Below, one piece after another: positions 3,702-19,267 of a stretch of 64,000 bases of DNA. The notes under the pieces were generated by a model. It did not search any database. It saw only the letters and a list, made by a program, of their open reading frames with translations, and had not been told where the DNA came from. Source of the stretch: Gammaproteobacteria bacterium (GTDB taxonomy: Bacteria; Pseudomonadota; Gammaproteobacteria; Burkholderiales; Rhodocyclaceae); NCBI GenBank assembly GCA_018828385.1, contig JAHJVE010000008.1:310001-374000 (forward strand), written 5' to 3'. The number at the start of each line of letters is the position of its first letter. Within the stretch, counting starts at the first letter, position 1. A program made the position numbers and the translations under genes.

Positions 3702-4062
3702 TTCGCTTCAAGTGCCTTGCAGTTTGGTTGTATATCTTCTTTGGTTCGCATTTTGTGGGTCATCTGTGGGTCAAATCTCGTCCGCTGCTCAACGAGGCTA
3801 AGTATAAATTGCACGACGCTGCACAGCATTTAAAAAATGATGACTGGCGTTTTATCCTGCACTTGCTGATTTGATCTCGATCGCCTTCGGGCGAAGTCTT
3901 ATGACTCGGTGACTGGGTAACGCTGGCAAGCGGCCGAAGCCGAAATGGATATCGATGATATTCGCCGTCGACTGATCTGATTCTAATAAGCCCGCATTTT
4001 CCCCGGGCAAGCACGGGAGCCATTCCGCCCCTCGCCAAAGGGCCGGCTAATGGGGAACGTCC
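3701..4062. other. Left end of the element, no convincing gene
   Basis: Contains the element-supplied start and upstream region of xthA on the reverse strand and GTGGGTCATCTGTGGG at 3755-3770, which recurs at 22195-22210 near the integrase and is probably an integrase arm-type site. A short forward frame ending near 3874 contains protein-like text but has no RBS, and I do not call it. No other feature was seen before the AlpA-like gene. Confidence 0.5.
3755..3770. repeat. Putative integrase arm-type site, left copy
   Basis: GTGGGTCATCTGTGGG, identical to 22195-22210, both in the same orientation and both inside the element (about 55 bp from attL and 123 bp from attR). Related TGTGGCCCAC sequence lies next to the right copy. 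Position and repetition suit integrase/excisionase binding; not shown directly. Confidence 0.5.
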
Positions 4063-4299
4063 GTGAAAAACTCACGCATCAAAGCCGCTACGGCGGCACA
4101 GCATTTCGACAGCCTTCCAGATAGCGCACGCATCAAGTCCACCGTTGCCCTAGTGATCCTTGGAGTCGACAGCCTGTCCACTCTGTGGCGCTGGGAAAAA
4201 TCCGGCCGGATGCCGCCCAGTCAAAAAATAGGTGGATCGCGGTACAAGAGTTGGGCGGCCGAAGAAATACGCCGGGTTCGCGATGCTCGGGGAGGCTGA
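4063..4299 (+). CDS. Small AlpA-like HTH protein, first gene of the rightward module
   Basis: 78 aa from a GTG start with GGGGAA just upstream. The core LSTLWRWEKSGRMPPSQKIGGSRYKSWAAEEIRR is the AlpA/excisionase winged-HTH pattern (helix, turn with a W-R-W recognition helix, beta-hairpin with GG-R-Y/W, final helix). AlpA of P4-like elements activates integrase expression or acts as excisionase. It is separated by 2 nt from the next gene. Here it heads a 12-kb rightward operon containing replication genes. A second AlpA-like gene lies at 16732-16989, so the two may divide excision and activation. Confidence 0.65.
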   Translation: MKNSRIKAATAAQHFDSLPDSARIKSTVALVILGVDSLSTLWRWEKSGRMPPSQKIGGSRYKSWAAEEIRRVRDARGG

Positions 4300-4301
4300 T
4301 C

Positions 4302-4655
4302 ATGGAACAGCTCTCACTCATCCCCAGAAATGACAGCGCCCGCATGGCCGCGGGCGAGTCGGGTAAATCAAGCTCAGTACATCTTGAGCGTAACCTGCCA
4401 GCCATCAACGGCCAATGCGCTCAGGTGCTCGGATTGATCCGCCAGCATCAGCCTTTGCTCTCGTTGGTACTGACTGCCGATCATGCTATTCCAGAGACAG
4501 CTGCCCGGGTACATGACCTTCGGGCCGCCGGCTGGAACATCCTGACGGTGATTCGCCCGATCGTTGTGTTCCGTGGCGTTGAGCGCCGGAACGTCGCTGC
4601 GTATTCTCTCGGCTCTCCGGAATGGCCGGCGCCCGGATTTTTTGAGGGCGACTGA
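4302..4655 (+). CDS. Winged-helix (HTH_39-like) element protein
   Basis: 117 aa. ATG at 4302 is preceded by GGAGG overlapping the end of the AlpA-like gene. The segment NGQCAQVLGLIRQHQPLLSLVLTADHAIPETAARVHDLRAAGWNI, written here only to mark its position (about residues 36-80), is the small helix-turn-helix domain often found in phages and ICEs near replication genes. The C-terminal GSPEWPAPGFF is a common ending in this group. It probably binds DNA or regulates replication; there is no direct evidence for a target. It ends one nucleotide before the next ATG. Confidence 0.6.
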   Translation: MEQLSLIPRNDSARMAAGESGKSSSVHLERNLPAINGQCAQVLGLIRQHQPLLSLVLTADHAIPETAARVHDLRAAGWNILTVIRPIVVFRGVERRNVAAYSLGSPEWPAPGFFEGD

Positions 4656-4656
4656 C

Positions 4657-4815
4657 ATGACCGCCCAAGATCAAGCCGTTATCCCGCTGGTCATCGGCCG
4701 TGGCCAACAAGCCTACGTCGACGCAAAACGATGGATCGAAGCCAAGTATCCCAACCTAACGCCGGAGCAGTACGCACAAGCCTGCCGGCTGGCCGCCAAG
4801 AAGGCTGGGGTGTGA
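4657..4815 (+). CDS. Small hypothetical protein (52 aa)
   Basis: Starts one base after the stop of the HTH gene and ends one base before the next ATG, which is the main reason to call it. The C-terminal part, WIEAKYPNLTPEQYAQACRLAAKKAGV, reads as a short amphipathic helical peptide. Function unknown; similar tiny proteins occur between regulator and replication genes in phages. Confidence 0.55.
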   Translation: MTAQDQAVIPLVIGRGQQAYVDAKRWIEAKYPNLTPEQYAQACRLAAKKAGV

Positions 4816-4816
4816 C

Positions 4817-5494
4817 ATGGCTATCAGGATAAAAGATTTCAGCAAATTCCAGCACTTCAAAGACCGCTCTCCGCCATGGGTCAAGCTTTATCGGGACATC
4901 CTGGACGATCCTGATTGGCATGAACTTGATGGAGAGTCAGCAAAGACTCTGGTCATGTTGTGGCTCCTTGCCAGTGAGGATGAGACAAAGCAAGGATTGT
5001 TGCCTGACGATAGAAAACTCTGTTTCAGGCTGCGAATCGACAATAAGGCTCTGGATCACGCTGTAAGCAAGCTGTCCCATTGGTTGGAGCGTGTTGATAT
5101 CAACGCGATATCAGATCGATATCAACTTGATGCACCAGAGCGCGCGGGCGAAGAGACAGAGGAGAGTAGAGGAGAGACAGAACATAGCTCACCTTTGGCG
5201 AGCGAGTCTGCAGACGATGGCTTCGCCAGCTTCTGGGAGCAGTACCCGAAGAAGGTAGCCAAGCCCCAAGCCATGAAGGCATGGAAGAAGATCAAGCCGG
5301 CCGGCCAAGTCATCGCCGACCTGATGGCAGGCCTTGAGCAGCAGAAGGCTTCCGGCGATTGGCAGAAGGACGGCGGCCAGTTCATTCCGCACCCGGCAAC
5401 CTGGCTCAATGGCCGGCGCTGGGAAGATGAGGCGCCGGCTGCTGGCCAGACGGCAGCACCGTCACGTAATCCGATCTTCGCGGGAGCCGTCTGA
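4817..5494 (+). CDS. Phage-type replication protein
   Basis: 225 aa. The N-terminal DRSPPWVKLYRDILDDPDW and the hydrophobic TLVMLWLLAS segment (about 20-55) resemble winged-helix replication initiators of lambdoid and other phages. A charged linker rich in Glu/Ser (about 110-135) leads to a C-terminal domain with FWEQYPKKVAKPQAMKAWKKI and FIPHPATWLNGRRWEDE, a typical C-terminus of phage replication proteins that interact with the helicase or its loader. It lies two genes upstream of the DnaB-like helicase, so an initiator or helicase-loading role is likely. Assignment rests on motif pattern and context. Confidence 0.7.
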   Translation: MAIRIKDFSKFQHFKDRSPPWVKLYRDILDDPDWHELDGESAKTLVMLWLLASEDETKQGLLPDDRKLCFRLRIDNKALDHAVSKLSHWLERVDINAISDRYQLDAPERAGEETEESRGETEHSSPLASESADDGFASFWEQYPKKVAKPQAMKAWKKIKPAGQVIADLMAGLEQQKASGDWQKDGGQFIPHPATWLNGRRWEDEAPAAGQTAAPSRNPIFAGAV

Positions 5495-5496
5495 TC

Positions 5497-6027
5497 ATGG
5501 CTATCCAACTTCCCTACGGCGCTGCCGAGATTGTCGCCCTGCGTACCGCCGGCAAGCGGCCGGCCGATCTGCTGCTGATTTCACTCGTCGGGCCGCTATA
5601 CGAAACCAACCCGGTAATCATTGCCCAGCCATCACGCTGCTACGACTGGCGCTTCGTGGTCGCACTGCCTGTCCTGATTGTGGCGACGACTGACACGCCG
5701 CACCTCGCCGGCATCGTCAATGCGATCGACAGCGCAGAGCCGGCCACCCTTTCGGTCTGGTTTTCTGATCAACAGGATGGCGTCAATGTTCTGATCGATG
5801 GTTACCGCCACCGGACAAAGACCGGCCGGCGCATGGGTGTAGCGCAGCGCGTGGCACTTGCAGGGCTGGGTTCGAACGACTCGGTAAGTGGTTGCCTGCA
5901 GCAGATTGCCGGCCAGGCGAAGCGCCGGGCCATGGAGAACGCCGACCGATTCGACGCTGTACTGGTCGAGATGGCTACCGCCGGCTTTCGTCGCCTCTTC
6001 GGCGCAGCCTGGGGGGCAGCATCATGA
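5497..6027 (+). CDS. Hypothetical protein in the replication operon
   Basis: 176 aa, ATG two nucleotides after the previous stop; its last codons overlap the helicase start by 4 nt (ATGA), so translation is probably coupled. An initial RTAGKRPADLLLISLVGPL segment precedes a DWRFVVALPVLIV core. No recognised domain. The position between initiator-like and helicase genes suggests a replication accessory function, which is inference. Confidence 0.6.
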   Translation: MAIQLPYGAAEIVALRTAGKRPADLLLISLVGPLYETNPVIIAQPSRCYDWRFVVALPVLIVATTDTPHLAGIVNAIDSAEPATLSVWFSDQQDGVNVLIDGYRHRTKTGRRMGVAQRVALAGLGSNDSVSGCLQQIAGQAKRRAMENADRFDAVLVEMATAGFRRLFGAAWGAAS

Positions 6028-6956
6028 ACGTGATCGACGACACCATAGATTTCGATGCCTACCTGCAGGGCCCCGACGAAGCGGCCAGTATCCGGCCAGC
6101 GGCATCGTGGGCTGATGAGGTAATCGCAGCATTCGAGCGCCCAGCCACCCAGACCGGCGCTGGCTTGCCGTGGAACAAGACCAGCGAGATTGTCCGGCTG
6201 CGCCATGGAGAACTTTCGATTTGGCCGGGTATGAGTGGGCACGGTAAGTCCATGATCGTCGGCCAAGTCGGGTTGCACCTGATGGCCCAAGGCGAAAAGA
6301 TCTGCATTGCTTCAATGGAGATGAAGCCAGCGGCAACGATGCAGCGCATGTGCCGGCAGGCCTTCGGATGTAACGCACCGAACCGCCAGGAGATTCGCGA
6401 CCTGCACACTTGGACGAATGACCGGCTGTGGCTTTACGACCAACAAGGCCAGGTCAGCCCCGAGCGCATGCTGGCAGTTGGCCGGTATTGCCACGAGCAA
6501 CTCGGCATCACTCACTTCGTAATCGACAATCTTCTTAGCTGCGGCATTGCCGAGGATGGCTATGACGCTCAGAAGCAGTTCGTGCTGGCACTGGCCACCC
6601 ATGCCCATGATACCGGCCAGGCGGTTCATCTGCTGGCGCATAGCCGGAAGGGCAAAGACGAACTGACGCCACCGGGCAAATTCGATGTGCGCGGGTCCGC
6701 ATCGATCACCGACTTGGCCGACAACGTTTTCAGCGTCTGGCGCAATCGAGGCAAGGAGTTGGCGCAGGAAGAGGGCGACCACAGCAAGAACAGCGAAGCG
6801 GACGCCCTATTGACCGTCTGCAAACACAGGCACGGCGACTGGGAGGGGCGTATTCAACTCTGGTTCAACCGGAGCAGCCAGAGCTACATGCAAGGTCCCA
6901 ACGATCAACCCAAGGCCATGCGATTGCTGGCCGATGAAGACAAGGTTGAATTCTGA
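6024..6956 (+). CDS. DnaB/gp4-type replicative helicase, RecA-like domain
   Basis: 310 aa. The Walker A motif GMSGHGKS is at residues 69-76, followed by CIASMEMKP (B-strand and switch), HFVIDNLL as Walker B near 170, HLLAHSRKGKDE as the conserved His motif near 210, and DVRGSASITDLADNVFSVWRN as the DnaB H4-like Ser-rich motif. The N-terminal primase-binding domain of full DnaB is absent, so this is a short, single-domain phage helicase. It would unwind element DNA during replication. ATG at 6024 overlaps the preceding stop, and its stop overlaps the next ATG. Confidence 0.85.
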   Translation: MNVIDDTIDFDAYLQGPDEAASIRPAASWADEVIAAFERPATQTGAGLPWNKTSEIVRLRHGELSIWPGMSGHGKSMIVGQVGLHLMAQGEKICIASMEMKPAATMQRMCRQAFGCNAPNRQEIRDLHTWTNDRLWLYDQQGQVSPERMLAVGRYCHEQLGITHFVIDNLLSCGIAEDGYDAQKQFVLALATHAHDTGQAVHLLAHSRKGKDELTPPGKFDVRGSASITDLADNVFSVWRNRGKELAQEEGDHSKNSEADALLTVCKHRHGDWEGRIQLWFNRSSQSYMQGPNDQPKAMRLLADEDKVEF

Positions 6957-7243
6957 TGGCAACCGTAACCCGAAAATTCCGTGATGACTTCGATTGCTGG
7001 GCAGCGGATCGCCTTGCTCGTGGCGAATTCACCGAGGCCGACATGGCCGACTTCAAGGATCTCCTGCGCCGTGATTTGGCGTCCGGTCCTGACCTGTTGC
7101 GTAAGGGTCTGACGGTAATCATCGCGGCCGGCGTTGAGGTGCCAGCAACGATTGATGACCACGAAGCGCGGTATCGCCATTGGGCTGACTTCTTCGATGT
7201 TGAGGCAGAAGCGATCCGCACGCTAAAGCAGAAGGCAGCATGA
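6956..7243 (+). CDS. Hypothetical small protein after the helicase
   Basis: 95 aa. Starts on the last base of the helicase stop and overlaps the next ATG by 4 nt. Rich in charged residues (CWAADRLARGEFTEADMADFKDLL). Predicted helical, with no signal peptide or membrane segment. No recognised family; operon position suggests a replication or modulation role. Confidence 0.55.
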   Translation: MATVTRKFRDDFDCWAADRLARGEFTEADMADFKDLLRRDLASGPDLLRKGLTVIIAAGVEVPATIDDHEARYRHWADFFDVEAEAIRTLKQKAA

Positions 7244-7596
7244 CCGCCGTCGCCCTCAAGCCTCAGCCAGCACCTGACGTGACCGATGCTGCCCGGGCAC
7301 TTGGCCGGCGCGGTGGGCGGCCGAAGGGTTCGTTCTCTTCGCCTCTAGCTGCCTGGCTTCGAAAGGAGGTAAAGCAAAAGCAGCGTGAAGGCTGGGGGCG
7401 CCGTGAGGGATTCAACATCGCAGCCAATACCGAGCGGCCTATCGATGACGATTCGTTTCAACTGACCGAGCGAACCGCAGAAGAAGCGGAAATCGAGACG
7501 GTCGACGAGGAAGGGAATGATCGCCCGGCAACAGTCAGTTGGGCGTACTGGAAAAAAATCTGGCTGGAAGTGCAGAACGGAAACCGCTTTCCGTAG
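7240..7596 (+). CDS. Hypothetical basic protein with AT-hook-like GRRGGRPKGS
   Basis: 118 aa. Near residue 22 it has GRRGGRPKGSFSSPLAAWLRKEVKQ, an AT-hook-like GRPKG followed by a basic helix, a pattern common in phage and ICE proteins of unknown function (DUF5681-like beginnings). An acidic C-terminal part ends in WKKIWLEVQNGNRF. The basic motif suggests DNA binding. The start overlaps the previous stop (ATGA). Confidence 0.55.
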   Translation: MTAVALKPQPAPDVTDAARALGRRGGRPKGSFSSPLAAWLRKEVKQKQREGWGRREGFNIAANTERPIDDDSFQLTERTAEEAEIETVDEEGNDRPATVSWAYWKKIWLEVQNGNRFP

Positions 7597-7666
7597 CCAC
7601 CTGTCCGGAGAATCTGATTCACCAGAGCGCAGGAGTGCTCACAACTCTTATTCGATGGAGCCCGCC

Positions 7667-9475
7667 ATGGCAAAGCAAACCAGAAAATCAACCCCGCGCC
7701 TCAGCTGCCCACCGCCCGGCACCATGGTTTTTGCTGAAGGAGGCAAGGTTGAAACCGCCGACGAACTGATGGCGAGAATTGCCGGCAAGTACGGTGTGAC
7801 AGGTCAGGCGCAAGCGGCACCAGTCCAGCAGCCTGTTCCCCAGCCCCAGCCCCAGCCCCAGCCCCAGCCCCAGCCCCAGCCCCAGCCCCAGCCGAAAGCA
7901 CAACCGCTACCGCAACAGAAAGTACTTGGCGGGATTATCGGCATCATCAAGAGCCGGCAACAGCAGATCGACAAGGCGGCAGAAGGCTACGCCAACGGCG
8001 GCAAGATCGCTGGTCCGGGAACGGCGAAGAGTGATTCCATCCCGGCGAAAATCCGTGAGAGCGGCGAGCCGATCAAGGTTTCGACGGGTGAGCGCATCGT
8101 CAGCGCTGAGCAGGATGCATTCCTCGAGTCAGTTGCTCAGTCTGCAGGATACGAAAGCCTTGATCAGATGCTCGAGGACGGTACGGGGAAGCCAGTTGGC
8201 CCGACGATCAAGGCCGGGAAGAGGGCGGCTGCTACCGGGATGGCGCCGGAGACGGACCCCGATACAGATGGACGCCGCCAGTACAGCGCAGGCTACGGCG
8301 ATTCGTTTGCAAATCGTGGTGCTTCCACCGGAAACCAGCGAGTCGACACGGCAATCGCCGCACCGCCAACCCTTGGAGGTGCTCCAGTGGCACGCACTGA
8401 GCCGGCCGGGACGCTGAGCAATCCGTCTGCGGCTGGCTTGACGATTGATCCATTCGGCCCCAAACCGGAAAAGCTCGGATCTGGCTTGTCTGGCATTGAC
8501 CCGTCATTTGCTCCCGGACAAGCGCAGCAACCGGTTAAGCCCGGCCGCGACTCGTCCGGGATCATCACGGCAGATTCAGCGCAGGCAGCAGCCGGCGCCG
8601 ATATGCAGCGCTCGGGCGGGATATCTGGCGGCATCGATATGGCTGGCGTGAATGGCATCCTTGCCCGGGAAAACAAGGCGCGCGGCGAAATGATCGATCT
8701 ATCGATTGCGGCCAACGGTGGGAACGGGATTGCCATCCTCGGCGACGAGAACGCGGCAGACAAAGCCAATGCCGAGAAAACGCAACGTTGGGCGCTTGAC
8801 GATCTGCGCAGTGGGATCAAGTCGGCTGGTACGCGCACCGAGCGTGCTGCGCTTGGCCAGGCGCTGAACCAGACGATTGCCGGTCATAACCAGCAGGCCA
8901 CCGAAGCTGCCCGACAGGAGGGCATCGCCCGCGGCCAAGACCTCAGTTACGGGGCGCGAATAGCACAGCAAGGCATTACAGCACGCGGTCAGGATCTCGG
9001 CTTGCAGCGGACACAGGAACGGAACGACATCCTGATTCGTGGGCAGGACATTCGATCCGAGAGCACCGACAAGCGCATTGCTTCGAACGAATCGATTGCA
9101 GCGACTCGGAGCGGTCCGACTCTCAGCCAGCAGCGCGGTAATACAGAGATCGACGCTGCACGGCAAACTATCGCAGGCCTGACCCCGGAAGACATTCGAC
9201 GCAAGACGGCAAAGACGACAAATACAGGCCGCGAAAATCCAGACTACGACCCGCAGCTCGAGCGCGCTGCGTCGTTGGCCAATCGCCGCCGTGTTGGAGA
9301 TGATCCGACCTTCGATCAGCGCCTGCAGCAGCAGCAACCGGCCGGCACCGATGGCGATGCGATGACCCGCTTCAAGGCTGACCAGGCAATGCAGGGCCAC
9401 AAGTTGGGCAAGCAGACGCCGAATGGGGTCGAGGTGCTGGATGCTTCCGGCAAGGTCATTGGGCATTATCACTGA
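7667..9475 (+). CDS. Large Gln/Pro-linker element protein, probable partner of the polyvalent protein
   Basis: 602 aa. ATG at 7667 has GGAG 6 nt upstream; an ATG at 7655 has no good RBS. After a Lys-rich start comes a (QP)n linker encoded by a CAGCCC tandem repeat, then a conserved-looking block with YANGGKIAGPGTAKSDSIPAKI and STGERIVSAEQDAFLESVA. Similar blocks (GPGTxxSDSIPAxLS.GEfV) occur in podovirus internal or tail-associated proteins. The C-terminal half is Gln/Arg-rich and helical. It ends 3 nt before the 1590-aa gene, so the two products probably act together, for instance as ejected proteins. The structural role is inferred. Confidence 0.55.
   Translation: MAKQTRKSTPRLSCPPPGTMVFAEGGKVETADELMARIAGKYGVTGQAQAAPVQQPVPQPQPQPQPQPQPQPQPQPKAQPLPQQKVLGGIIGIIKSRQQQIDKAAEGYANGGKIAGPGTAKSDSIPAKIRESGEPIKVSTGERIVSAEQDAFLESVAQSAGYESLDQMLEDGTGKPVGPTIKAGKRAAATGMAPETDPDTDGRRQYSAGYGDSFANRGASTGNQRVDTAIAAPPTLGGAPVARTEPAGTLSNPSAAGLTIDPFGPKPEKLGSGLSGIDPSFAPGQAQQPVKPGRDSSGIITADSAQAAAGADMQRSGGISGGIDMAGVNGILARENKARGEMIDLSIAANGGNGIAILGDENAADKANAEKTQRWALDDLRSGIKSAGTRTERAALGQALNQTIAGHNQQATEAARQEGIARGQDLSYGARIAQQGITARGQDLGLQRTQERNDILIRGQDIRSESTDKRIASNESIAATRSGPTLSQQRGNTEIDAARQTIAGLTPEDIRRKTAKTTNTGRENPDYDPQLERAASLANRRRVGDDPTFDQRLQQQQPAGTDGDAMTRFKADQAMQGHKLGKQTPNGVEVLDASGKVIGHYH
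7841..7894. repeat. Hexanucleotide tandem repeat (CAGCCC)8 plus one variant
   Basis: Eight exact CAGCCC units followed by CAGCCG, in frame, encoding a Gln-Pro linker. Slippage by one unit changes linker length without shifting frame. Confidence 0.85.
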
Positions 9476-9478
9476 GCC

Positions 9479-12400
9479 ATGCCCTTCGTTTCCCTCGATC
9501 AAACCGAAGAGCAGCCGCGCCGTGGCTTCGTACCCTTGGCTGATGCCGAGCCCAAGCGCGGATTCGTTCCGCTGCAGACCGAAGACAAACAGCCGTCGAT
9601 CCTGAAAACGATTGCTCTGGAAAACCCGCTGACTGCCATTGCTGAAACCGGATTGAACCTGGCATCGCAGGCGGTGGCGCTTCCGGTTGCCGGCCTTGCT
9701 GGTCTGGCGACTGAAGCCGGCAACGCTCTGGGCCTGACTGAGAAGAAGGGCGCCGATGTCGTGCACCAGGTGGGCGAGGCGCTTACCTATGCGCCACGCT
9801 CCGAAATGGGCCAGGCAGCTACCGAGATTGCCACGTACCCGTTCCAGAAACTCGCCGAGGCTGGCCAGTGGGTGGGAGACAAGACCTTGGCGGCGACCGA
9901 TAGTCCGCTGGTGGCAACTGCGGTCGACACCGCTATCAATTCCTTGCCGATGCTGATCGGTCCGGCGAAGAAGGGTGCGGTAGCGGTCAAGGATCGCATC
10001 GCCGGCAAGTCTGACGTAACGCCGGAAGCCATCGCGCCGGAGGCTGAGGCTGCCCGGCCTGTTGATAGGGCCTTGGCGCGCGACTCTGTAAATTTGACGG
10101 AAGGATTCACGAATGAGCACAACAGCCCAATTGCCGCCTCAACGAATGCAACGGCCAGCATCAGTGAGGCAACTTCACCCCGTGGAGTGCAACGCCTGGG
10201 AGCACATCAAGGCACTTTGCTCCAACCAAAAACACCGGCACTGGAATCGTTATGGCGGGGCGGGGATCAAGGTTTGCCCGGAATGGCTGAACAGCTTCGA
10301 GACGTTCCTGAAGGACGTAGGGCCGAAGCCCAGCCCGAAGCACCGGCTATCACGCAGGGAGTTGACCAAGGACTTTTGCCCGGACAACGTGGCCTGGGAG
10401 ACAGCGGATTCGTGGGGCGCCCTGAAGAGGCCGTTACCCGCAGGACGGTCGAGGGAGGACGCCCAACTGGTCTCGATGGTCGGGAAGGTTCTCGGAGTGC
10501 GGCCGTCGGCACTTCTGATCATGCTGGACAATGGACTGACCACCTGCGAGCAGCTGCGCAACCGGCTCCAATCCTCGACCCCAGCGCCGGACCGCTGAGC
10601 CGGTCGGCTGCGATCGCACGGCCGGACCTCGTGATCAGGGCCAAGGAGGCAACGCCGGCCGGTCCATTCGGCGAGCTGATACCCGATTCCGGTACCGTCA
10701 GAGAGGCGATGCTCCCGACTGAACCTAAGGCGTGGGTAGGCTTTGCCGATGACTCCGGATCGCTTGGCGTTCCACGCGCCGAGATGCCACAGATCAAAGC
10801 TGAGCACCGCGGCGCCATGACCCAGTTCATGAACGCCCGTGGGGTCAAGCACCGGGCAGAAGAGGTTCGCGCAGATTTGCTCAAGCCGACGCAGGCCGAA
10901 TTCTCGCCGGCCAAGGTCAAGAGCGCACTTGGATTCGAAGGCGGCGAGCGCTCGATTCTGGTTTCATCCGATGGCTACATCCTGGACGGACATCACCAGT
11001 GGCTGGCCAAGCGCGCACAAGGAAAAACGGTCGACGTCATTCGCTTCGATGCGCCGATTGCTGACCTGTTCAAGCTCTCCCATGATTTCCCCAGTTCGCA
11101 GAAGGCGAAGGGGGCAAGTGCCGAACCTGCCCGCGGATTCACGCCGCTTGCCGAGACCCAGCGCGCAGCCCGGCCGGGCACCGAGTATTCCTTCGCGCCT
11201 GGCAACAGCTACACCGGTTTCATCAACGATGCTACGCAGCCCGGCGCAGTCACAACCCAGCCCAGTGCCGTGGGACGTGGCCAGCCGATCCGCCGGGAAG
11301 ACATCCTGATCCCGTTTGCCAAGGAGTTGGGCGCCTCGATCTACACCGGCCGGGTGAATATGAAAAACGCTTTGGGCTACTTCCGGCGCGGCACTGAAGA
11401 GATCAGGATCAAAAAGCATGCTGACTTGGAAACAACCGCTCACGAGATGGGCCATCTTCTCGATAGCCGCGTGCCGGCCATCTCCAAGGAATGGCGGAAC
11501 AATACGGCGCTGCGCAAGGAGTTGAAATCCATCTCCTATGACCAGCAGAAGGTCAGCGAGGGTTACGCCGAGGGGATCCGTCTTTACTTGACTCAGCCTG
11601 ACGTATTGCAGGCTAAGGCGCCGATGGTGTTCGATTGGCTCGAGAACTTTGCCCAGATCGACAAGAAGTACGGACCGACCTTGCGCAAGGCTCAGGAAGG
11701 CATGACCAAGTGGTTTGCGCAGGATTCCATTGACCGGGCCCGCTCCAAGATCGGCGATCACCGGCCATTGTCCGACGCCATGAACGGCGCAATGGATCGT
11801 TTCCGTCAGTCTGTCAGCGATGACCTGCATGGGATCTATCGCATGGAGCGCGAGTTGCAGGGCGGCAAGTTGGAACCGGTGGGCGCCTATGAGTCCGCGC
11901 GTTTGTCCCGAGCCTCGGCATCCATCGCCGACGGCGCCGTGCGCTTCGGCTATCCGGTCAAGAATGCGGACGGCTCATTCACCTACCGCGGCAAGGGTTT
12001 GGAATCCATCATGAAGCCCGTCGCCGAGCGCCTGGATGATGCGCTGCTGTACTTCGTTGGGCGCAGCGCTCAGGAACTGATGCTGCAAGGCCGGGAGCAC
12101 CTTTTCACCAAGGGCGAGATCCGCGGGATGCTGCAACTGGAAACTCCGGAGGCCCGGAAAGCCTTCGCCGAATATCAGCAGTGGAACCGTGGCGTTCTGG
12201 ATTTTGCCGAGGCGCAAGGTGTCCTTAACCCGGAGACCCGCCTCAAGTGGAAGCGGGTGGAGTACCTGCCATTCAGCCGCGTTGAGCAGCCGGGCGGACT
12301 CAAGGGCAAGCCCGGGGACTGGGCCGGCATCCAGGCATTGACCGGTGGTACCGAGAATATCCGCGATGTCCTGGGCAACATGATCGGCAACGCCGCGCAG

Positions 12401-14251
12401 TTGATCGATGTCGCCGTGAAGAACGAGGCGCGAGTGAAGATCGCCGAACTGGCCAGCAAGCCGGGCGGAGGCAAGTTCATGGCCAAGATCGATACCGGCA
12501 GCCGGCCGGTCAAGATTGGCGGTAGCCAAGTATTGGACGAAATGTTCAAGCGCTACGGCATTGCGGTCGACGGCGATGCGCCGGCCTTCTTTCAGTTCAT
12601 GCTGCACAACCAGCCGCCGGCCGGGGGGAATGTCGTTGCGGTGCTTAAGGGCGGCAAGCCGACCTGGTACGAAGTGGGGGATCCCATCCTGTTCCGTTCG
12701 TTGCAGGCGATCGACCGCCCGCCGATGCAGTGGCTGACCAAATGGCTGGGTTATCCGAAGCGGATCGGGCAGATGGCCATCACCCTGACCCCTGACTTTA
12801 TGCTGGCGAATATTGCGCGCGACACCATCATGGGTTCGGTTATGTCGCGATCAGGATTTCGGCCTGTGATCGATTCGCTGCAGGGCATGCGCCTGCGCAT
12901 GACCGAGGATCCGCTGTACAAGGATTACATCGCCAACGGAGGAGGGCTTTCCAGCCTGTACCTGGAAGAAAAGGCGGTGCGCGCCAAGCTTGAGCATTTT
13001 TACGATCGGCAGGGGATCGATTATCGGACGGTGCTGGATACACCAAAGAAACTGATGAATGCGGTGGAGACCATCGCTGACGCGTTCGAGATGTCGACGC
13101 GCCTAGGCGAGTACAAGCGGGCCATCGATGCCGGCGAGCATCCGCGCCATGCGGCCTATCAGGGCCGGGAAGTGTCGACCGATTTCGCGATGCGCGGTGA
13201 TTCCAAGGCGCTGGGCTTCATGTACGACACGGTGATGTTCCTGCGCCCTGCAGTTGAATCCATGGACCGCCTGTACCGAGGCGTTGCCCACGATCCGAAC
13301 AAGGCAGCCATCGGCGCCAAGACGGCCATGCTGGCACTGGCATCGGTCGGCCTCTACCTGCTGAATCGGGACGATCCGCGCTATCAGGACTTGAACGATT
13401 GGGACCGGGACGCGAACTGGCATTTCTTCGTTGGTGATCAGCATTTCCGGTATCCGAAGATCTGGGAAATTGGGGCCGTGGCCAGTACCGCAGAGCGCAC
13501 TGCCGAGAAGCTGATGCAGTCCGACCCGGCAGGGCTGGGCAAAGACTTCGCCCGCATCGTCGGCAACACCTTCAGCCTGAATTACATGCCGCAGATCGTG
13601 GCGCCGCTGGTCGAGCAGGCAACCAACCGAAATAGTTTCACCAAGGCACCCCTGGAAACGCCGGGCATGGAGAACGTGCAGCCGTTCCTGCGGGCCAAGC
13701 CGAACACCTCCGAGACCATGCGGGCGATCGGCATGGCAACCCGCGATCTGCCGGAATCACTGCAGGTAAATCCAGTGCGGGCTGAGGCGCTGCTGCGTGG
13801 CTACCTGAACACTTGGGGCATGTATGGCTTGATGCTGTCTGACAAGGCTTTCTTTGGCGACAAGCAGCCCGAGATGCGCACTGACCAGATGCCCGTGGTT
13901 CGCCGTTTCTACAGTCAGGAACCGCCCCAGCACACCAAGTTCGAGACGCAGTTCTACGACATGCTGGGTGAGGCCAAGCGATTGCAAGGCACGCTCCGCG
14001 AACTGGATCGCCAGGGCCGCCCCGATATCGCCGATCAGAAGGAACTGAGTCCTCTTGCCGGTGAAGCCAAGCCGCTCGAGCGAGCCGCCAAGAACCTGCA
14101 GGGCATCAATTCGGAAATGCGCGACGTTCGCCGGGCGGCTGATCTGTCGCCGGTAGAGAAGCGGCAGCGCCTGGATGGCCTGACGGTCGAGCGGAATCAA
14201 CTATTGAAGGATGCTGTGTTGGCCGCCAAGGCTGCGCAGGCCAACCGATAA
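9479..14251 (+). CDS. 1590-aa polyvalent protein (ParB-like, HExxH metallopeptidase-like, LPD38)
   Basis: Multidomain protein of the kind named polyvalent proteins: large phage or conjugative-element proteins thought to enter the recipient cell with the DNA. Visible parts: residues 1-200 with two RGFVPL repeats and long hydrophobic/helical stretches; about 212-373 low-complexity sequence overlapping a second gene; about 470-520 a ParB-like fold with ILVSSDGYILDGHHQW (503-508 DGHHQW); HEMGH at 655-659 in an MPTase-like metallopeptidase segment; about 760-1480 a large domain ending in NDWDRDANWHFFVGDQHFRYPK near 1307-1327, characteristic of LPD38; a coiled C-terminus. It probably counters host defences or prepares the cell after entry. 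Start is coupled to the previous stop. Confidence 0.75.
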   Translation: MPFVSLDQTEEQPRRGFVPLADAEPKRGFVPLQTEDKQPSILKTIALENPLTAIAETGLNLASQAVALPVAGLAGLATEAGNALGLTEKKGADVVHQVGEALTYAPRSEMGQAATEIATYPFQKLAEAGQWVGDKTLAATDSPLVATAVDTAINSLPMLIGPAKKGAVAVKDRIAGKSDVTPEAIAPEAEAARPVDRALARDSVNLTEGFTNEHNSPIAASTNATASISEATSPRGVQRLGAHQGTLLQPKTPALESLWRGGDQGLPGMAEQLRDVPEGRRAEAQPEAPAITQGVDQGLLPGQRGLGDSGFVGRPEEAVTRRTVEGGRPTGLDGREGSRSAAVGTSDHAGQWTDHLRAAAQPAPILDPSAGPLSRSAAIARPDLVIRAKEATPAGPFGELIPDSGTVREAMLPTEPKAWVGFADDSGSLGVPRAEMPQIKAEHRGAMTQFMNARGVKHRAEEVRADLLKPTQAEFSPAKVKSALGFEGGERSILVSSDGYILDGHHQWLAKRAQGKTVDVIRFDAPIADLFKLSHDFPSSQKAKGASAEPARGFTPLAETQRAARPGTEYSFAPGNSYTGFINDATQPGAVTTQPSAVGRGQPIRREDILIPFAKELGASIYTGRVNMKNALGYFRRGTEEIRIKKHADLETTAHEMGHLLDSRVPAISKEWRNNTALRKELKSISYDQQKVSEGYAEGIRLYLTQPDVLQAKAPMVFDWLENFAQIDKKYGPTLRKAQEGMTKWFAQDSIDRARSKIGDHRPLSDAMNGAMDRFRQSVSDDLHGIYRMERELQGGKLEPVGAYESARLSRASASIADGAVRFGYPVKNADGSFTYRGKGLESIMKPVAERLDDALLYFVGRSAQELMLQGREHLFTKGEIRGMLQLETPEARKAFAEYQQWNRGVLDFAEAQGVLNPETRLKWKRVEYLPFSRVEQPGGLKGKPGDWAGIQALTGGTENIRDVLGNMIGNAAQLIDVAVKNEARVKIAELASKPGGGKFMAKIDTGSRPVKIGGSQVLDEMFKRYGIAVDGDAPAFFQFMLHNQPPAGGNVVAVLKGGKPTWYEVGDPILFRSLQAIDRPPMQWLTKWLGYPKRIGQMAITLTPDFMLANIARDTIMGSVMSRSGFRPVIDSLQGMRLRMTEDPLYKDYIANGGGLSSLYLEEKAVRAKLEHFYDRQGIDYRTVLDTPKKLMNAVETIADAFEMSTRLGEYKRAIDAGEHPRHAAYQGREVSTDFAMRGDSKALGFMYDTVMFLRPAVESMDRLYRGVAHDPNKAAIGAKTAMLALASVGLYLLNRDDPRYQDLNDWDRDANWHFFVGDQHFRYPKIWEIGAVASTAERTAEKLMQSDPAGLGKDFARIVGNTFSLNYMPQIVAPLVEQATNRNSFTKAPLETPGMENVQPFLRAKPNTSETMRAIGMATRDLPESLQVNPVRAEALLRGYLNTWGMYGLMLSDKAFFGDKQPEMRTDQMPVVRRFYSQEPPQHTKFETQFYDMLGEAKRLQGTLRELDRQGRPDIADQKELSPLAGEAKPLERAAKNLQGINSEMRDVRRAADLSPVEKRQRLDGLTVERNQLLKDAVLAAKAAQANR
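10113..10598 (+). CDS. Overprinted HNH-like/YGG-motif protein inside the polyvalent gene
   Basis: 161 aa in the +1 frame relative to the surrounding gene. ATG at 10113 has a strong Shine-Dalgarno, GGAAGGA, 7 nt upstream. Residues about 28-100 read WEHIKALCSNQKHRHW, NRYGGAGIKVCPEWLNSFETF and GPKPSPKHRLSR followed by DFCPDNVAWE. This order (Cys-Asn/Lys, YGGRGI-like, ERWLNSFxxFLxDMG, PSPxHxLDR, NGxYxPxNxRWA) is that of small phage HNH/AP2-like endonuclease proteins. A helical C-terminus follows. The host frame stays open across the same DNA but there looks like low-complexity sequence. It may be an inserted mobile nuclease cassette. The Asp/Asn positions of classical members are partly altered (LSR for LDR), so activity is uncertain. 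Confidence 0.65.
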   Translation: MSTTAQLPPQRMQRPASVRQLHPVECNAWEHIKALCSNQKHRHWNRYGGAGIKVCPEWLNSFETFLKDVGPKPSPKHRLSRRELTKDFCPDNVAWETADSWGALKRPLPAGRSREDAQLVSMVGKVLGVRPSALLIMLDNGLTTCEQLRNRLQSSTPAPDR

Positions 14252-14274
14252 CCAAACCCATCGAGGAGAACACC

Positions 14275-14769
14275 ATGAGCACAGGAAACAGCATCAGCCT
14301 TTCACGAGAAAGTGACGAAGTTCGCGCCAAGAAGTATCTGCCCGCCGATTTCGGAGAAGATGAACCCGAGGTCGTCCAGTTGCGAGAGAAGCAGGCCATA
14401 GCCAAGGCACAACGGGCCAAGGCTGATAATGACTTGGCAGCCTTCGGCAACACGCAGGGCGCCCGGAATCAATCGGTATGGAGTGCCGAAGCCGAGATAG
14501 ATCGTATCGACAGCGGCCGGCCCAAGCTGCTGGCGCGCCTGATCCTGGAAGGTGGCGACTTCACCCAAGACGCGAATCTGCAACGACGCCGCCGCGAACT
14601 GGCGCTGCTGGTAGAACGCTACCGTCTTGCTAGTCCGGTCATCGGTCAGATGCGCAAGGAACTGGAGCAGGAATCGCAGGAGGCTGGCCAGCGTCATCAG
14701 GCCATCTCGAATCAGATTCGCGATGTGTTGGATCGTCTGCGTCTAGAACGGGTGGCTGCACAGCGCTGA
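14275..14769 (+). CDS. Hypothetical coiled-coil protein
   Basis: 164 aa with AGGAGAACACC before the ATG. Heptad-like stretches rich in Arg, Glu, Gln and Leu cover about residues 30-60 and 100-164 (QRRRRELALLVERY, QISNQIRDVLDRLRLERV). No signal peptide or membrane segment. It lies 23 nt behind the polyvalent gene in the same direction. A scaffolding or virion-associated role is possible but there is no specific signature. Confidence 0.55.
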   Translation: MSTGNSISLSRESDEVRAKKYLPADFGEDEPEVVQLREKQAIAKAQRAKADNDLAAFGNTQGARNQSVWSAEAEIDRIDSGRPKLLARLILEGGDFTQDANLQRRRRELALLVERYRLASPVIGQMRKELEQESQEAGQRHQAISNQIRDVLDRLRLERVAAQR

Positions 14770-14784
14770 CGGTAGCCGGACGCC

Positions 14785-15519
14785 ATGAGCACCAAGGAGT
14801 TGCGGGAGCGCTGGAAGGCCTACTGGCAGGAGCAGGAGGCCAACGGCTACCAATATACCGGCGATCCATTGCCTCCGGAATTGGTCGGGATGACCTGTGG
14901 CGGCACGACGAGGGCAGGAACGCCTTGCAAGCAGAGGTCTATCTACAGAAATGGTCGGTGCAAGTTCCATGGTGGCATGGCAACCGGCCCGACCACGGAG
15001 GCCGGCAAAGAGCAGGCGAGGATCAACGGAAGAAAGGGTGGGAGGCCGAGAAAGGCTTCTTGCGTAGATGCTGAAGCATTGACCCAGCAAGGTGCGAGAC
15101 TGTTGAAAGATGTCCGAGTTTCGGAAGCTGCAATAGAAACCGAAATCATAGAGCCTTGGAAAAGTATAGTTTCCAAGCAAATCCCCGGGGAAGAATTGGG
15201 GAGTGTTCCAGGGCACGAAATGTCCACAGATGTCCATGTTTCGGCAGTGCATGAACAGCGGGAAATCATTCCCGATAAACCGAAGTCCATGAACTGTTTA
15301 AAGATGTCAGGTATTGGCGAACCGGAGCCAATAGCTGAAATGTCCAAAGATGCCCATGCTTTGTCCGGTACTTTGCATCGCTGCTCAGACTGCCGAAACC
15401 TGTCGGCCAACTGGATCTGCCAGGCCGCAGCGCGTGGCGAGATCGAGGGCGGTGGCGAATTCCGTCCTGTCCTCTCTGAGCCCCGAAATTGCCAGGCTTT
15501 CAAGCACTGGAAAACCTAA
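14785..15519 (+). CDS. HGG-motif zinc-binding phage protein with internal repeats
   Basis: 244 aa. Residues 38-75 hold C38, C48, C59 and H62 in the order TxCGGTTRAGTPCK-(x)-GRCKFHGG, followed by ATGPTTEAGK. This short Cys3His motif with a HGGxxTGPxTxEGK tail is common in phage and mobile-element genes, often near terminases, and probably binds zinc and DNA. The middle has three related segments (LKDVRVSEAA, STDVHVSAVHE, SKDAHALSGT). The C-terminus has a CSDC pair plus two more Cys, a possible second zinc site, ending CQAFKHWKT. Function unknown. Confidence 0.6.
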   Translation: MSTKELRERWKAYWQEQEANGYQYTGDPLPPELVGMTCGGTTRAGTPCKQRSIYRNGRCKFHGGMATGPTTEAGKEQARINGRKGGRPRKASCVDAEALTQQGARLLKDVRVSEAAIETEIIEPWKSIVSKQIPGEELGSVPGHEMSTDVHVSAVHEQREIIPDKPKSMNCLKMSGIGEPEPIAEMSKDAHALSGTLHRCSDCRNLSANWICQAAARGEIEGGGEFRPVLSEPRNCQAFKHWKT

Positions 15520-15711
15520 GTCATGGAGCGGTAAGGTTTCGGCTAGGGTTTCGGAATTTCTGAGCCCCACCACGCGGGGGAATTTCTTCAGTCCATCACG
15601 CTCGCTCGAGACGTGCAGAATTTTCCGTGTCCATCACACGCGGGAAGCCTGGCGAACTGGATGATGGCTGGTCTCGGAAAATGATGACTGTCCAGACTGC
15701 CAAGCGCCCCG

Positions 15712-16020
15712 ATGACCACTATTCGAGTAACCACCGATACCGCATTGCAGGCCATCAAGAAGCACGTCGACAGCGCCGGAAAAGAGCATTTCACCACGGT
15801 TGAGATCGCTCGAGTCATGGGCGCCGACGAATACCATGTCCGCATTGCGTTCAGTTGGCTGACTAGGTTCAAAGCGATCGAGCGTGTTCCCGGCGTCCGC
15901 AGCGTGCGCTACACCGAGACGCAGGGCGAGAAGTATTCGGCCAGCGTCTACAGGATCCGCGAAGAGGCGGCGCCGGTTGATTTTGCCGCGCTGAATCGGC
16001 TGTTTGGGTATGGGTGCTGA
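15712..16020 (+). CDS. Putative winged-helix DNA-binding protein
   Basis: 102 aa, last gene of the rightward module. TTVEIARVMGADEYHVRIAFSWLTRFKAIERVPG (about 28-62) reads as a winged helix: an HTH with a recognition helix and a following hairpin. The C-terminus ends VDFAALNRLFGYGC. There is no good RBS before the ATG. It probably binds element DNA. The preceding 192 bp (15520-15711) hold no gene I can support. Confidence 0.5.
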   Translation: MTTIRVTTDTALQAIKKHVDSAGKEHFTTVEIARVMGADEYHVRIAFSWLTRFKAIERVPGVRSVRYTETQGEKYSASVYRIREEAAPVDFAALNRLFGYGC

Positions 16021-16021
16021 C

Positions 16022-16101
16022 GGTTACATCAGCCAGGTTACATGGCCAGTTACACCCAAAACGTTGGTTCGCAGAGAAGAGGTTCGCAGCGAGGTTCGCA
16101 G
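16022..16101. repeat. Iteron-like cluster of short direct repeats
   Basis: GGTTACA at 16022-16028 and 16036-16042 with AGTTACA at 16048-16054, spaced 14 and 12 bp, followed by GGTTCGCAG at 16066-16074, 16081-16089 and 16093-16101, spaced 15 and 12 bp. They lie between the last rightward gene and the end of a leftward gene. The arrangement would suit an origin of replication or a regulator-binding cluster. Confidence 0.45.
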
Positions 16102-16158
16102 CAAAGAGTGGGTTGGTCCAAAACTTGACCGACCCCCGACTTGCACCAAATCGCAAAC

Positions 16159-16401
16159 TCAAGCCGTGGCTCGACCGTTCACAAATTTGTGAACCGTGAA
16201 ATCCTGGTCTTCGATAAAGCTGTACTGCTCGATGCGTGCTACAGTCACTGCGCTGCTTTGGCCGCGAACCATGGAAGGCGCCCCATCGGCCTTGGAGGGC
16301 GCACTTGCAAAGTCGGACTGTCCGCCGAGGGCAGAGGCGGGAACGGGTTCCCCGCTCTGAGGCAGTTTCTTCGCCGCACTTATTGATAAACCATTGATCA
16401 A
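16159..16401 (-). CDS. Hypothetical 80-aa protein from a TTG start, coupled to a tiny upstream peptide
   Basis: The TTG directly follows the TGA stop of the 30-aa gene (TGATTG). The C-terminal half, AVTVARIEQYSFIEDQDF, looks protein-like; the N-terminal half is Ala/Ser/Pro-rich. The last codons run through the palindrome at 16177-16194. No recognised family. A forward frame overlaps the same DNA, so the call is tentative. Confidence 0.4.
   Translation of the reverse strand: MINGLSISAAKKLPQSGEPVPASALGGQSDFASAPSKADGAPSMVRGQSSAVTVARIEQYSFIEDQDFTVHKFVNGRATA
16177..16194. promoter_or_regulatory. Perfect 18-bp palindrome
   Basis: GTTCACAAATTTGTGAAC is its own reverse complement. It stands 76 bp from the last GGTTCGCAG repeat, whose GTTCGCA resembles the palindrome's half-site. 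A dimeric regulator or initiator site is likely. Confidence 0.5.
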
Positions 16402-16494
16402 TCATCGTGACGGCTTCGCGGCCAATACCAGGATGCCAAGAAGCCAGTACACAACCTCGGTTGGAATTTGGGTTACCGAAAGCGTGATTTCCAT
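16402..16494 (-). CDS. Tiny 30-aa membrane peptide
   Basis: MEITLSVTQIPTEVVYWLLGILVLAAKPSR: a single hydrophobic segment (about 14-26) with a basic tail. GAGGAG lies 8 nt before the ATG, one of the best RBS sites in this stretch. The stop abuts the TTG of the next gene. It could be a leader for coupling, a small membrane toxin or a holin-like peptide. The 237 bp upstream (16495-16731) hold only a short GTAAGC/GCTTAC inverted repeat and the terminator of the neighbouring operon. Confidence 0.45.
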   Translation of the reverse strand: MEITLSVTQIPTEVVYWLLGILVLAAKPSR

Positions 16495-16682
16495 TTGAAT
16501 ACTCCTCGTGGTTGCAGTGACGTCATGGTCTAGCAGCAGCACCGATAACGTCAGGGGGAAGTGCTTCGGCGGTAAATCTGGAATCGCCAAAGCATGCAAC
16601 CAGTCTCATGGATGGCATCCTGCAAATAAAGGGTTGGAAGATGTAAGCGGGAGGCTTACACCCAGAATATTTGACCAGGCGT

Positions 16683-16705
16683 AAAAAACCCGCCTCGTGG
16701 GCGGG
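16683..16705 (-). terminator. Terminator of the leftward five-gene operon
   Basis: On the reverse strand CCCGCC-CACGA-GGCGGG is followed by TTTTTT, 27 nt past the stop of the AlpA-like gene. Confidence 0.8.
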
Positions 16706-16731
16706 GTGGGGGGGGCTGAGATTCCGGATAC

Positions 16732-16989
16732 TCAAGGTTGACCATCACCTTGGTTTCTGCGCCCTGTGTTTGCAGGCGGAAGCAGATCAGAAACCGGGCG
16801 CGCTGCTGCCCAGGCTTCAAGTTCCGATACGAGGTAGCCAGTGCATTTAGCAGATATCTTCCGGATTGGCGGGAATCCGGTGGTCGCACGCTCCCGGGTG
16901 AGCTTTTCGACGGTCGATTTGGAGATGCTGCCGAGCATCTTTCCTGCTGTCTCAGAATCGACCATGAGCGGTTTAATCGTCACATTCAT
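16732..16989 (-). CDS. AlpA-like excisionase/activator
   Basis: 85 aa. DSETAGKMLGSISKSTVEKLTRE is the HTH, followed by the hairpin and GYLVSELEAWAAARP, the standard AlpA/MerR-like ending in which Tyr-Leu-x-Ser-Glu-Leu-x-x-Trp contacts DNA. The family activates integrase expression or assists excision in P4-like elements. It is the last gene of the leftward operon and overlaps the preceding one by 4 nt. Confidence 0.75.
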   Translation of the reverse strand: MNVTIKPLMVDSETAGKMLGSISKSTVEKLTRERATTGFPPIRKISAKCTGYLVSELEAWAAARPVSDLLPPANTGRRNQGDGQP

Positions 16990-17225
16990 GACTTCGCTCG
17001 AGATCCGTTGAGATGAACATCAAGGGCGCTGGCGCAAGCGTCAAGAATCAGGCTTGCGCCATCGGCCGCATTGGTGTTGCTGCCCAGATCAAGACCATCG
17101 CGAAAAGCAAAGGCCATGAAGGTCAGCACGTTGCGCACGTTCTCTGCCGTCTCTTCCGGCTGGTCTTCGTAGGCGATCAACGGATTGATGGCCGACAGGC
17201 TGGGGGTGGTGGTTTCGGTGGTCAT
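16986..17225 (-). CDS. Hypothetical small acidic protein
   Basis: 79 aa. After a Thr-rich start it has a helical part, VRNVLTFMAFAFRDGLDLG, and ends with an LILDACASALDVHLNGSRAKS segment. No recognised family. It overlaps both neighbours by 4 nt, so the whole block is translated as a unit. Confidence 0.55.
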   Translation of the reverse strand: MTTETTTPSLSAINPLIAYEDQPEETAENVRNVLTFMAFAFRDGLDLGSNTNAADGASLILDACASALDVHLNGSRAKS

Positions 17226-17563
17226 GACTTCGCCCCTTTGTTGGCGGCCTTGGTTTCGGACTCACGCAGGCGATAGCCGGCCTCGGCGCTCAGCCGAAAA
17301 AGGCCGTTGATGTAGTCGATCTGTTTCGAGATCGAGAACAGCAGCGTAGATACGTCGTCAGCGTTGGTGAAATTGCCAGCCTTGTTTCCGGGGCGATCAT
17401 CTGCCATCACCATGCAGCCGATATCTTCGACAATATCCGAGAGATTGCCTGCCAAAAATGAGGCGTGTTCATCCAGATTGGCAATGTCCTTCAGCTCGCC
17501 TTCGTCCAGATGATCCGCGGCCTTCTCCCAAAGCATGGTCAGGGTGTCGAAATCTTTGCTCAC
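17222..17563 (-). CDS. Hypothetical small acidic protein
   Basis: 113 aa, acidic and helical (FDTLTMLWEKAADHLDEGELKD at the start), with GCMVMADDRPGN in the middle and a Lys-rich C-terminus. No signal or membrane segment. It resembles in style, not in clear sequence, its operon neighbours. Function unknown. It overlaps the genes on both sides by 4 nt. Confidence 0.55.
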   Translation of the reverse strand: MSKDFDTLTMLWEKAADHLDEGELKDIANLDEHASFLAGNLSDIVEDIGCMVMADDRPGNKAGNFTNADDVSTLLFSISKQIDYINGLFRLSAEAGYRLRESETKAANKGAKS

Positions 17564-17907
17564 AGTTCACCTCCTTCGCTATCGGTGATATTTACGGCAT
17601 TCTGCCTGCCAAGGCTGTAGTTAAAGCGTGGCCCCGTTTCATCGCAGGCCCGGGCGAGGGCGTGTCCGATGACTTCACAGAAGCCACCCAGGCGGGCGCC
17701 GCATTCCTCGACACGGTTCTCGACAGCCAGGGCGATGATCTCCCCCATGGAGTCGCTCATCAGTTCGGCCGGGTTATCGCCTTCCTCCAAGTTGCTGATT
17801 GCGACCAGGAGGCCGACTGCTTCTAGGTTGCCGGCCTTGTGCGCTTCGGGCAGTGATTGCAAGCGCAGGCGCTGGGTGTTGCCAGAGCGGGTTATGGAGG
17901 TGTTCAT
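17560..17907 (-). CDS. Hypothetical small protein
   Basis: 115 aa. ATG at 17907 has AAGGAG 7 nt upstream. A basic N-terminus (SGNTQRLRLQSLPEAHKAG) is followed by helical LEAVGLLVAISNLEEGDNPAEL and a Cys-containing VEECGARLGGFCEVIGHALARACDETG. No recognised family. It overlaps the preceding gene by 4 nt. Confidence 0.6.
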   Translation of the reverse strand: MNTSITRSGNTQRLRLQSLPEAHKAGNLEAVGLLVAISNLEEGDNPAELMSDSMGEIIALAVENRVEECGARLGGFCEVIGHALARACDETGPRFNYSLGRQNAVNITDSEGGEL

Positions 17908-18200: not shown

Positions 18201-18251
18201 GGTCGTTTCCTCAAGGTTGCCGCCGTCCGGGAGTGGATCGGATTGATGTGC

Positions 18252-18303
18252 AATATAGAGTGCGCTATAGTGTATTGTCAAGCGCTGTATAGAGCACTAT
18301 ATT
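18252..18303. promoter_or_regulatory. Overlapping divergent promoters with operator half-sites
   Basis: Rightward: TTGTCA (18275-18280), 17-bp spacer, TATATT (18298-18303). Leftward: TTGACA (18281-18276), 18-bp spacer, TATATT (18257-18252). The -35 boxes overlap. The spacers contain TATAG-6 nt-CTATA and TATAG-4 nt-CTATA inverted repeats. This looks like a switch region controlling the two early operons, probably bound by the HTH protein encoded at 18319. Confidence 0.75.
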
Positions 18304-18318
18304 AAAGCGAGGAAACAA

Positions 18319-19220: not shown

Positions 19221-19267
19221 GCTTCCGGAATGCGCCATTACTACATTCCATGGCTCTGCTTACTGGA

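Follow-up and report, generated by a model that had tools for sequence, protein, structure and literature searches.

In the window analyzed here, a stretch of 64,000 nucleotides from a gammaproteobacterial contig (JAHJVE010000008.1, Rhodocyclaceae), a phage polyvalent gene appears to have a phase-neutral HNH cassette overprinted on one of its linkers. The probability of this reading, which is drawn from sequence comparison, is put at about 85%. One stretch of DNA would probably yield two proteins, neither of which spoils the other. Homing genes are usually said to hide in host genes by RNA or protein splicing. Out-of-frame HNH elements have been described in the relevant passages of PMC11855218 (Genes 2025), namely the ShiLan domain and the Pacc40 gp60 insertion, which lie in mycobacteriophage methylase genes. 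The features of the window on which the argument turns are the following.

9479..14251, plus strand: host gene, encoding a 1590-aa polyvalent protein (open reading frame list, Pfam and relatives).
9521..9574, plus strand: stretch close to the N-terminus of the host protein with two RGFVPL linker repeats (sequence).
10099..10105, plus strand: Shine-Dalgarno-like GGAAGGA, 7 nt upstream of the nested ATG.
10113..10598, plus strand: nested gene, encoding a 161-aa HNH(YGG)-family protein (open reading frame and PHROG 3377).
10188..10412, plus strand: YGG/HNH core of the nested protein, residues 26-100 (PHROG 3377 match and alignment).
10341..10400, plus strand: motif stretch HRLSRRELTKDFCPDNVAWE of the nested protein, residues 77-96, aligned with HWLGRLDVTGNYSPENCVWT of locus L012.

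The host protein belongs to the LPD38 polyvalent proteins, its LPD38 domain occupying residues 1299-1474 of the 1590-aa product (Pfam PF18857, E=5.8e-47, 160.7 bits against a cut-off of 27), and in PHROG it matches several families of large phage proteins. A 652-aa protein is encoded upstream of the host gene, and in its coding sequence an array of repeats spaced 12 nt (window 7829-7900) codes for a Pro-Gln repeat. The nested open reading frame comprises 161 codons from an ATG start, lies wholly within the 1590-codon frame in the +1 phase and covers host residues 212-373, and the GGAAGGA before it also codes in the host frame, as TEG of LTEGFT. This arrangement was claimed in the first-pass annotation and is borne out by the sequence. 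Length alone is weak proof, since the same polyvalent gene holds a second +1 open reading frame of 158 codons from stop to stop.

The family assignment made at that time, a recognizable HNH/YGG-type protein, has likewise proved right. The nested protein matches PHROG 3377, an HNH endonuclease family, at E=1.9e-22, as well as families 8790 (E=2.4e-20) and 374 (E=1.4e-16), and three endonuclease families besides PHROG 3377 match it at E<1e-9; in sequence family it agrees with HNH homing endonucleases. The Pfam scan of the nested protein returned no match, and the PDB sequence search returned designed repeat proteins only. The lack of any homologue elsewhere had been named as evidence against the proposal; homologues do exist, with tblastn matches in 504 phage records. 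A chance open reading frame is rejected on the combined grounds of this homology, the conserved phase and the codon shuffles described below.

Relatives of the polyvalent protein were collected from genomes of the same genus (5 of 76 with a match), species genomes (7 loci) and viral contigs (10 loci, and 34 with a profile), these lists overlapping. The screen covered 39 rows, from which repeats recognized by contig had been left out and in which the look-alike pairs L148/L151 and L144/L145 were kept. An HNH gene is nested within the polyvalent frame in 14 of the 39 rows, always in phase +1 and always with the large frame open, and a second polyvalent copy (L029) is present in the window's own genome. 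The other 25 rows include 6 flagged as cut off on the left, one (L016) that starts at the contig start and 18 that reach the region without a nested HNH gene; these 18 consist of 4 close relatives (L134, L137, L138, L147) and 14 distant ones. In L148 and L151, an HNH gene lies on the opposite strand elsewhere in the locus. A search of viral contigs for relatives with the window's nested protein alone as query gave no confirmed case, and the polyvalent protein had no match among plasmids. A Staphylococcus phage match and Pseudomonas phage MR12 were inspected and set aside: each has an annotated CDS for the HNH match, in the same frame as the match.

The proposal that an HNH cassette entered a linker in such a way that both frames survived therefore stands in part: the gene is out of frame, both frames are open, the arrangement recurs, and it is absent from four close relatives. 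The clean insertion at residues 212-373 that an alignment had been expected to reveal did not emerge. An exact empty site was sought among the HNH-less relatives and none was usable; the linkers without the gene are too different for the ends of an insertion to be defined.

In 12 of the 14 loci, the sequence ahead of the nested start matches a Shine-Dalgarno site over at least 4 nt, compared with 17% of the 1164 control ATGs elsewhere in these genes. This comparison is biased toward the result because the nested starts were chosen manually and with some regard to the Shine-Dalgarno match. In L012 and L024, the match is only 3 nt. RGFVPL-like repeats directly precede the nested start in several relatives, and in several loci the Shine-Dalgarno site lies in the codons for the last residues of an RGFxPL-type linker repeat (for example PLKEA in L031, PLKEV in L032, PLEEV in L132). 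The nested stop coincides with the start of the next unit, which is a GFQPL repeat in L029, L030, L031 and L032 and the RYAL(I/V)EA start of the downstream module in L012, L132 and L135. Since start and stop both fall at unit edges, the cassette fills a linker between two modules in those loci.

Helix-turn-helix families were recognized in some of the relatives, with Sigma70_r4 matched by 4 of 12 members (best E=1.6e-08). In the alignment, the window's nested copy lacks much of the second helix-turn-helix part; it is also divergent at the motif stretch and is the most divergent copy overall (end branch 1.99), and all other polyvalent copies apart from L135 exceed it in length. Given this divergence and the reduced second helix-turn-helix part, the window copy may be decaying. 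Past the nested gene, host residues 405-547 form a module like part of a 3506-codon open reading frame in a genome of the same genus (G062), with 73% identity over residues 419-546, and the match breaks off there in many aligned relatives. The idea that this shared module had replaced the 3' end of the window's nested gene was dropped, as convincing similarity begins near host residue 420, past the nested stop.

As far as codon positions tell, substitution in the overlap follows the HNH frame, and the large frame is only kept open. The third position of a nested codon is the first position of a host codon, and it differs at 0.35-0.49 of sites in the 11 pairs listed; in the same pairs, the wobble position of host-only sequence differs at 0.18-0.52, and no nested position diverges less than the second. 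For instance, L029 and L030 differ at 0.24, 0.17 and 0.44 of nested codon positions 1, 2 and 3, and at 0.14, 0.07 and 0.41 in the host-only C-terminal part. When all pairs are pooled, the values for the nested positions are 0.46, 0.42 and 0.51, a weaker contrast that is attributed to saturation of sites. Moreover, when L012, L014, L021 and L036 are compared with L022, the nested proteins are 62-68% identical and the overlapped host frame 42-44%. Identities and position data together thus indicate that the host frame is held open and its sequence hardly held. In the pairs of the codon-position comparison, the nested gene also evolves faster than the C-terminal domain, with amino-acid differences of 0.31-0.60 versus 0.06-0.30. 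Conservation of large-frame residues 212-373 among homologues had been named in the first-pass annotation as a point against nesting. Those residues do align between relatives, but they are not conserved in the sense intended there; their alignment looks like a shadow of HNH conservation, since host first positions in this part diverge like wobble sites or faster.

The openness of the large frame exceeds what codon usage predicts. In the shuffle test, the nested HNH protein was kept, its own synonymous codons were shuffled, and stops were counted in the host frame (L135 was shuffled with a GTG start; the ATG chosen for the start-site comparison gives 149 codons). Such shuffles predict 1.0-5.4 host-frame stops per polyvalent locus, and none is observed in any of the 14. 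In the window locus, 2.7 stops are expected and the probability of none is 0.039; the 14 loci share ancestry, so that these per-locus probabilities are not simply multipliable. When codons are resampled according to their usage elsewhere in the host gene, the expectation rises to 2.4-8.2 stops, again with none observed in 14 of 14. The remaining forward frame over the nested gene contains 3-11 stops in the 14 polyvalent loci.

Controls were provided by HNH relatives from viral contigs. Among the 80 that were kept, 10 are stop-free in the host-like frame, all of them within a long open reading frame (7 polyvalent, 3 with inteins), and the other 70 have 1-26 stops. In a second set of 80, the five stop-free relatives are four in intein-bearing terminase genes and L210, which has a 173-codon open reading frame only. 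A free-standing relative of the same WLGRLD type, in another prophage-like place, has 3 stops in the host-like frame. As 70 of the first 80 relatives are not open there and neither is the free-standing WLGRLD copy, the open second frame goes with nesting and not with the family. Open reading frames in other frames over the first 80 HNH relatives comprise one in the other sense frame (L076, 208 codons), 19 antisense frames of 150-307 codons and one antisense frame of 629 codons (L109). The last of these spans the HNH match at 7001-7363 of L109 and may be a mere mirror frame of GC-rich DNA.

Beyond the polyvalent group, ten further phage loci carry an HNH gene out of frame inside an intein-like insert, with no host-frame stop in any of them. 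The hosts are DNA polymerase genes in L087, L106, Shewanella phage SFCi1 (L127), APSE-7 (L243) and Salmonella phage vB_SenS_S532 (L244), and terminase genes in L100, L163, L177, L178 and L211. The phase is +1 in nine and +2 in S532. Own-codon shuffles expect 3-12 host-frame stops, and none of 2000 shuffles was stop-free in 8 of the 10 loci, the stop-free fraction being 2.9% in L087 and 1.2% in SFCi1. The seven lower-GC cases (GC 0.46-0.55) are open too, with 6-12 stops expected. Six of the ten hosts were scanned with Pfam: L106, SFCi1, L244 and L087 match a polymerase family, L163 matches a terminase family, and L100 gave no match; an intein splicing family was matched strongly in L106, weakly in L163 and in none of the other four. 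The remaining intein and terminase labels were given by eye from the sequence pattern, that of S532 also from the annotation of its record. The GenBank records of SFCi1, APSE-7 and S532 annotate no HNH gene at the positions below.

L127 3797-4471 (KX196154.1, SFCi1): unlisted HNH gene in a DNA polymerase insert.
L243 3489-4157 (LR794149.1, APSE-7, 46% GC): unlisted HNH gene in a DNA polymerase insert.
L244 3345-4091 (NC_073188.1, S532): unlisted HNH gene in a DNA polymerase insert, in the +2 frame.

No paper on out-of-frame HNH genes in inteins was recognized among those listed, and a bioRxiv preprint on actinobacteriophage inteins cited by PMC11855218 may cover such cases. The inteins and homing endonucleases of Jerseyvirus phages are treated in PMC8425127, in passages that do not mention frames.

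Whether the polyvalent-borne protein still cuts DNA is doubtful. Among distinct parsed motifs, an acidic residue (Asp or Glu) precedes the conserved Arg in 120 of 123 free-standing relatives and in 6 of 7 intein copies, whereas all 6 polyvalent copies have Gly or Ala there (parsing of the motif failed in 11 of 160 loci). By alignment, the window copy has Ser at this position and the other polyvalent copies have Gly. In I-HmuI, the residue taken as equivalent, an Asp, is a metal ligand. The doubt about cutting follows from this loss of the acidic residue throughout the polyvalent group, whose protein may bind DNA without cutting it. The loss is not tied to nesting, since the free-standing L123, which lies outside the motif count, also has Gly before the Arg. 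The first-pass claim of a nuclease can be upheld with respect to the HNH(YGG) family but not clearly with respect to activity, Gly, Ala or Ser having replaced the Asp or Glu that is usual in free-standing relatives.

The trees of the nested proteins and of the polyvalent C-terminal domain disagree. The HNH clade of L012, L014, L131, L132 and L136 has a support of 100/100 and is rejected on host data (p-AU 0.0005), and the host clade of L014, L132 and L133 is rejected on HNH data (p-AU 0.0001), the clades for these topology tests having been picked after the trees were inspected. The L031+L032 group is rejected at 0.014, and the L029-L032 group of four is not rejected. This conflict implies that the cassette was exchanged. 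In the pair L024/L140, the nested third position differs more than the host wobble (0.35 against 0.18), an excess that hints at exchange. Both homing and ordinary phage recombination fit the conflict of the trees.

An active homing element of the ShiLan type, in which empty polyvalent alleles are still cleaved by the nested protein and gain the cassette during repair, is possible but considerably less probable than a cassette maintained by overprinting. It would account for the patchy presence (14 loci with the cassette, 4 close relatives covering the region without it), for the conflicting trees and for the occurrence of HNH genes of the same family in inteins, a classic setting of homing. 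It is weakened by the Gly or Ala before the conserved Arg in the 6 parsed polyvalent copies and the Ser in the window, where 120 of 123 parsed distinct free-standing motifs have Asp or Glu, a residue with a presumed catalytic role, and by the fact that no cleavage site and no empty allele with matching flanks were found.

Two simpler explanations concern the reading frames themselves. The nested frame is open for 33-56 codons upstream of the chosen start in 4 of 12 loci, and strand and +1 phase are identical in 14 of 14, as would be expected if the nested protein were a +1 frameshift extension of the polyvalent N-terminus whose own start is unused; in 8 of 12 loci, however, the frame opens only 0-5 codons before the ATG, which leaves little room for a shift site, and Shine-Dalgarno matches precede that ATG, making a frameshift very unlikely. 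It is hardly credible, moreover, that what reads as one polyvalent gene is a pair of genes with an ordinary HNH gene between them, the large frame lacking stops over the overlap only as an accident of GC-rich sequence. The own-codon probability of no stop is at least 0.05 in 6 of 14 polyvalent loci (up to 0.33 in L131), and conserved N-terminal and C-terminal parts do surround a variable middle. Nevertheless, not one stop occurs in the 14 loci although their nested third positions differ as much as noted in the pairs listed, the seven lower-GC intein cases are open as well despite the 6-12 stops expected, and among the 80 HNH relatives of the first set the 10 that are open in that frame are the nested ones.

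An intron was rejected since Rfam gave no match in window 9000-12000 at E<=1, group I and group II intron RNAs included, and no intron match in L029 and L132 at the gathering score; an intein in the window's polyvalent protein was rejected since no Hint or intein family was matched by Pfam at E<=1. Under the overprinting reading, the nested protein would be translated separately, from the internal Shine-Dalgarno sequence and ATG on the polyvalent mRNA, and ribosomes from the polyvalent start would read through the same stretch, producing a loose linker rich in Ala, Gly and Arg that the large protein tolerates. Neither product would require splicing. A homing HNH gene is the probable origin of the cassette, which would later have been exchanged between related elements, and with its HNH-like core and helix-turn-helix repeats the polyvalent-group protein may now be a DNA-binding protein rather than a cutter.

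The polyvalent gene may be carried by integrated elements that are small, 17-19 kb in size. In L132, exact 51-nt repeats corresponding to the 3' part of tRNA-Asn (433-483 and 18149-18199) lie 17.7 kb apart and enclose the polyvalent gene together with an integrase and a small-terminase match. The window region 3684-22352 contains an integrase (20963-22225, minus strand) and replication genes, as well as repeats of 20-23 nt that nearly match each other and are separated by about 18.5 kb. In the second element of the window's genome, an int-alpA RNA (Rfam RF02996, L029 1979-2046) adjoins the integrase. Our guess is that the element carrying the polyvalent gene is a phage satellite.

On balance, we lean toward regarding overprinting in a stop-free phase as a general route by which HNH genes lodge in phage genes, in tolerant, unspliced linkers as well as in mini-inteins with which the nuclease is out of frame, in unrelated hosts and, among the present cases, mostly in one phase, with one branch domesticated into a non-cutting DNA-binder. 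The hosts counted here are the polyvalent protein, DNA polymerase and terminase, together with the published methylase. A nuclease-family gene would then persist within host genes because it is writable in such a way that the other frame has no stops. Long same-strand overlapping phage genes become testable on many homologous pairs, and annotation can miss such genes, as the records of SFCi1, APSE-7 and S532 illustrate. Additionally, the copies form a natural series that starts with intein copies bearing the usual motif and ends with one that has probably been domesticated.

Among known systems, the closest are ShiLan and Pacc40 gp60. As described in the relevant passages of PMC11855218, these share with the present cassette an HNH gene of about 160-200 codons, out of frame in a phage gene, a stop-free host frame and no intron or intein signature, the last being true here of known introns and inteins at the sequence level. 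The differences from ShiLan, according to the same passages, lie in the host gene (LPD38 polyvalent here, methylase there), the phase (+1 against the third frame), the starts (ATG, mostly with Shine-Dalgarno matches, against GTG with no site found) and the motif, which is altered in the polyvalent group. The place differs as well: ShiLan occupies a conserved site, between two of its codons, whereas the polyvalent cassette sits in a variable linker with no matching empty site. The distribution of ShiLan is described there as disjunct; here, presence is patchy and the trees conflict, for which recombination also accounts. Among the papers listed, those recognized as dealing with out-of-frame HNH genes are PMC11855218 and the genome announcement PMC12613952, both as far as their relevant passages go. 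On that basis, an out-of-frame HNH gene in a phage gene is known from PMC11855218, and what is new is the host gene, the phase, the ribosome-site matches and the probable loss of cutting.

The other comparisons are with the two partners of the overlap. The LPD38 domain of the window's host protein is common to the polyvalent proteins of PMC5512222, whose main text contains neither "overlapping" nor "intein". The nested protein is of the same family as the YGG-type phage HNH endonucleases of PHROG 3377, 8790 and 374, from which the polyvalent copies differ in having no Asp or Glu before the conserved Arg. Inteins with in-frame homing endonucleases likewise keep a homing-type gene within a readable host gene; the polyvalent cassette differs from them in having no splicing domain, and in the ten intein-like cases the HNH gene is out of frame with its host, unlike in-frame intein endonucleases.
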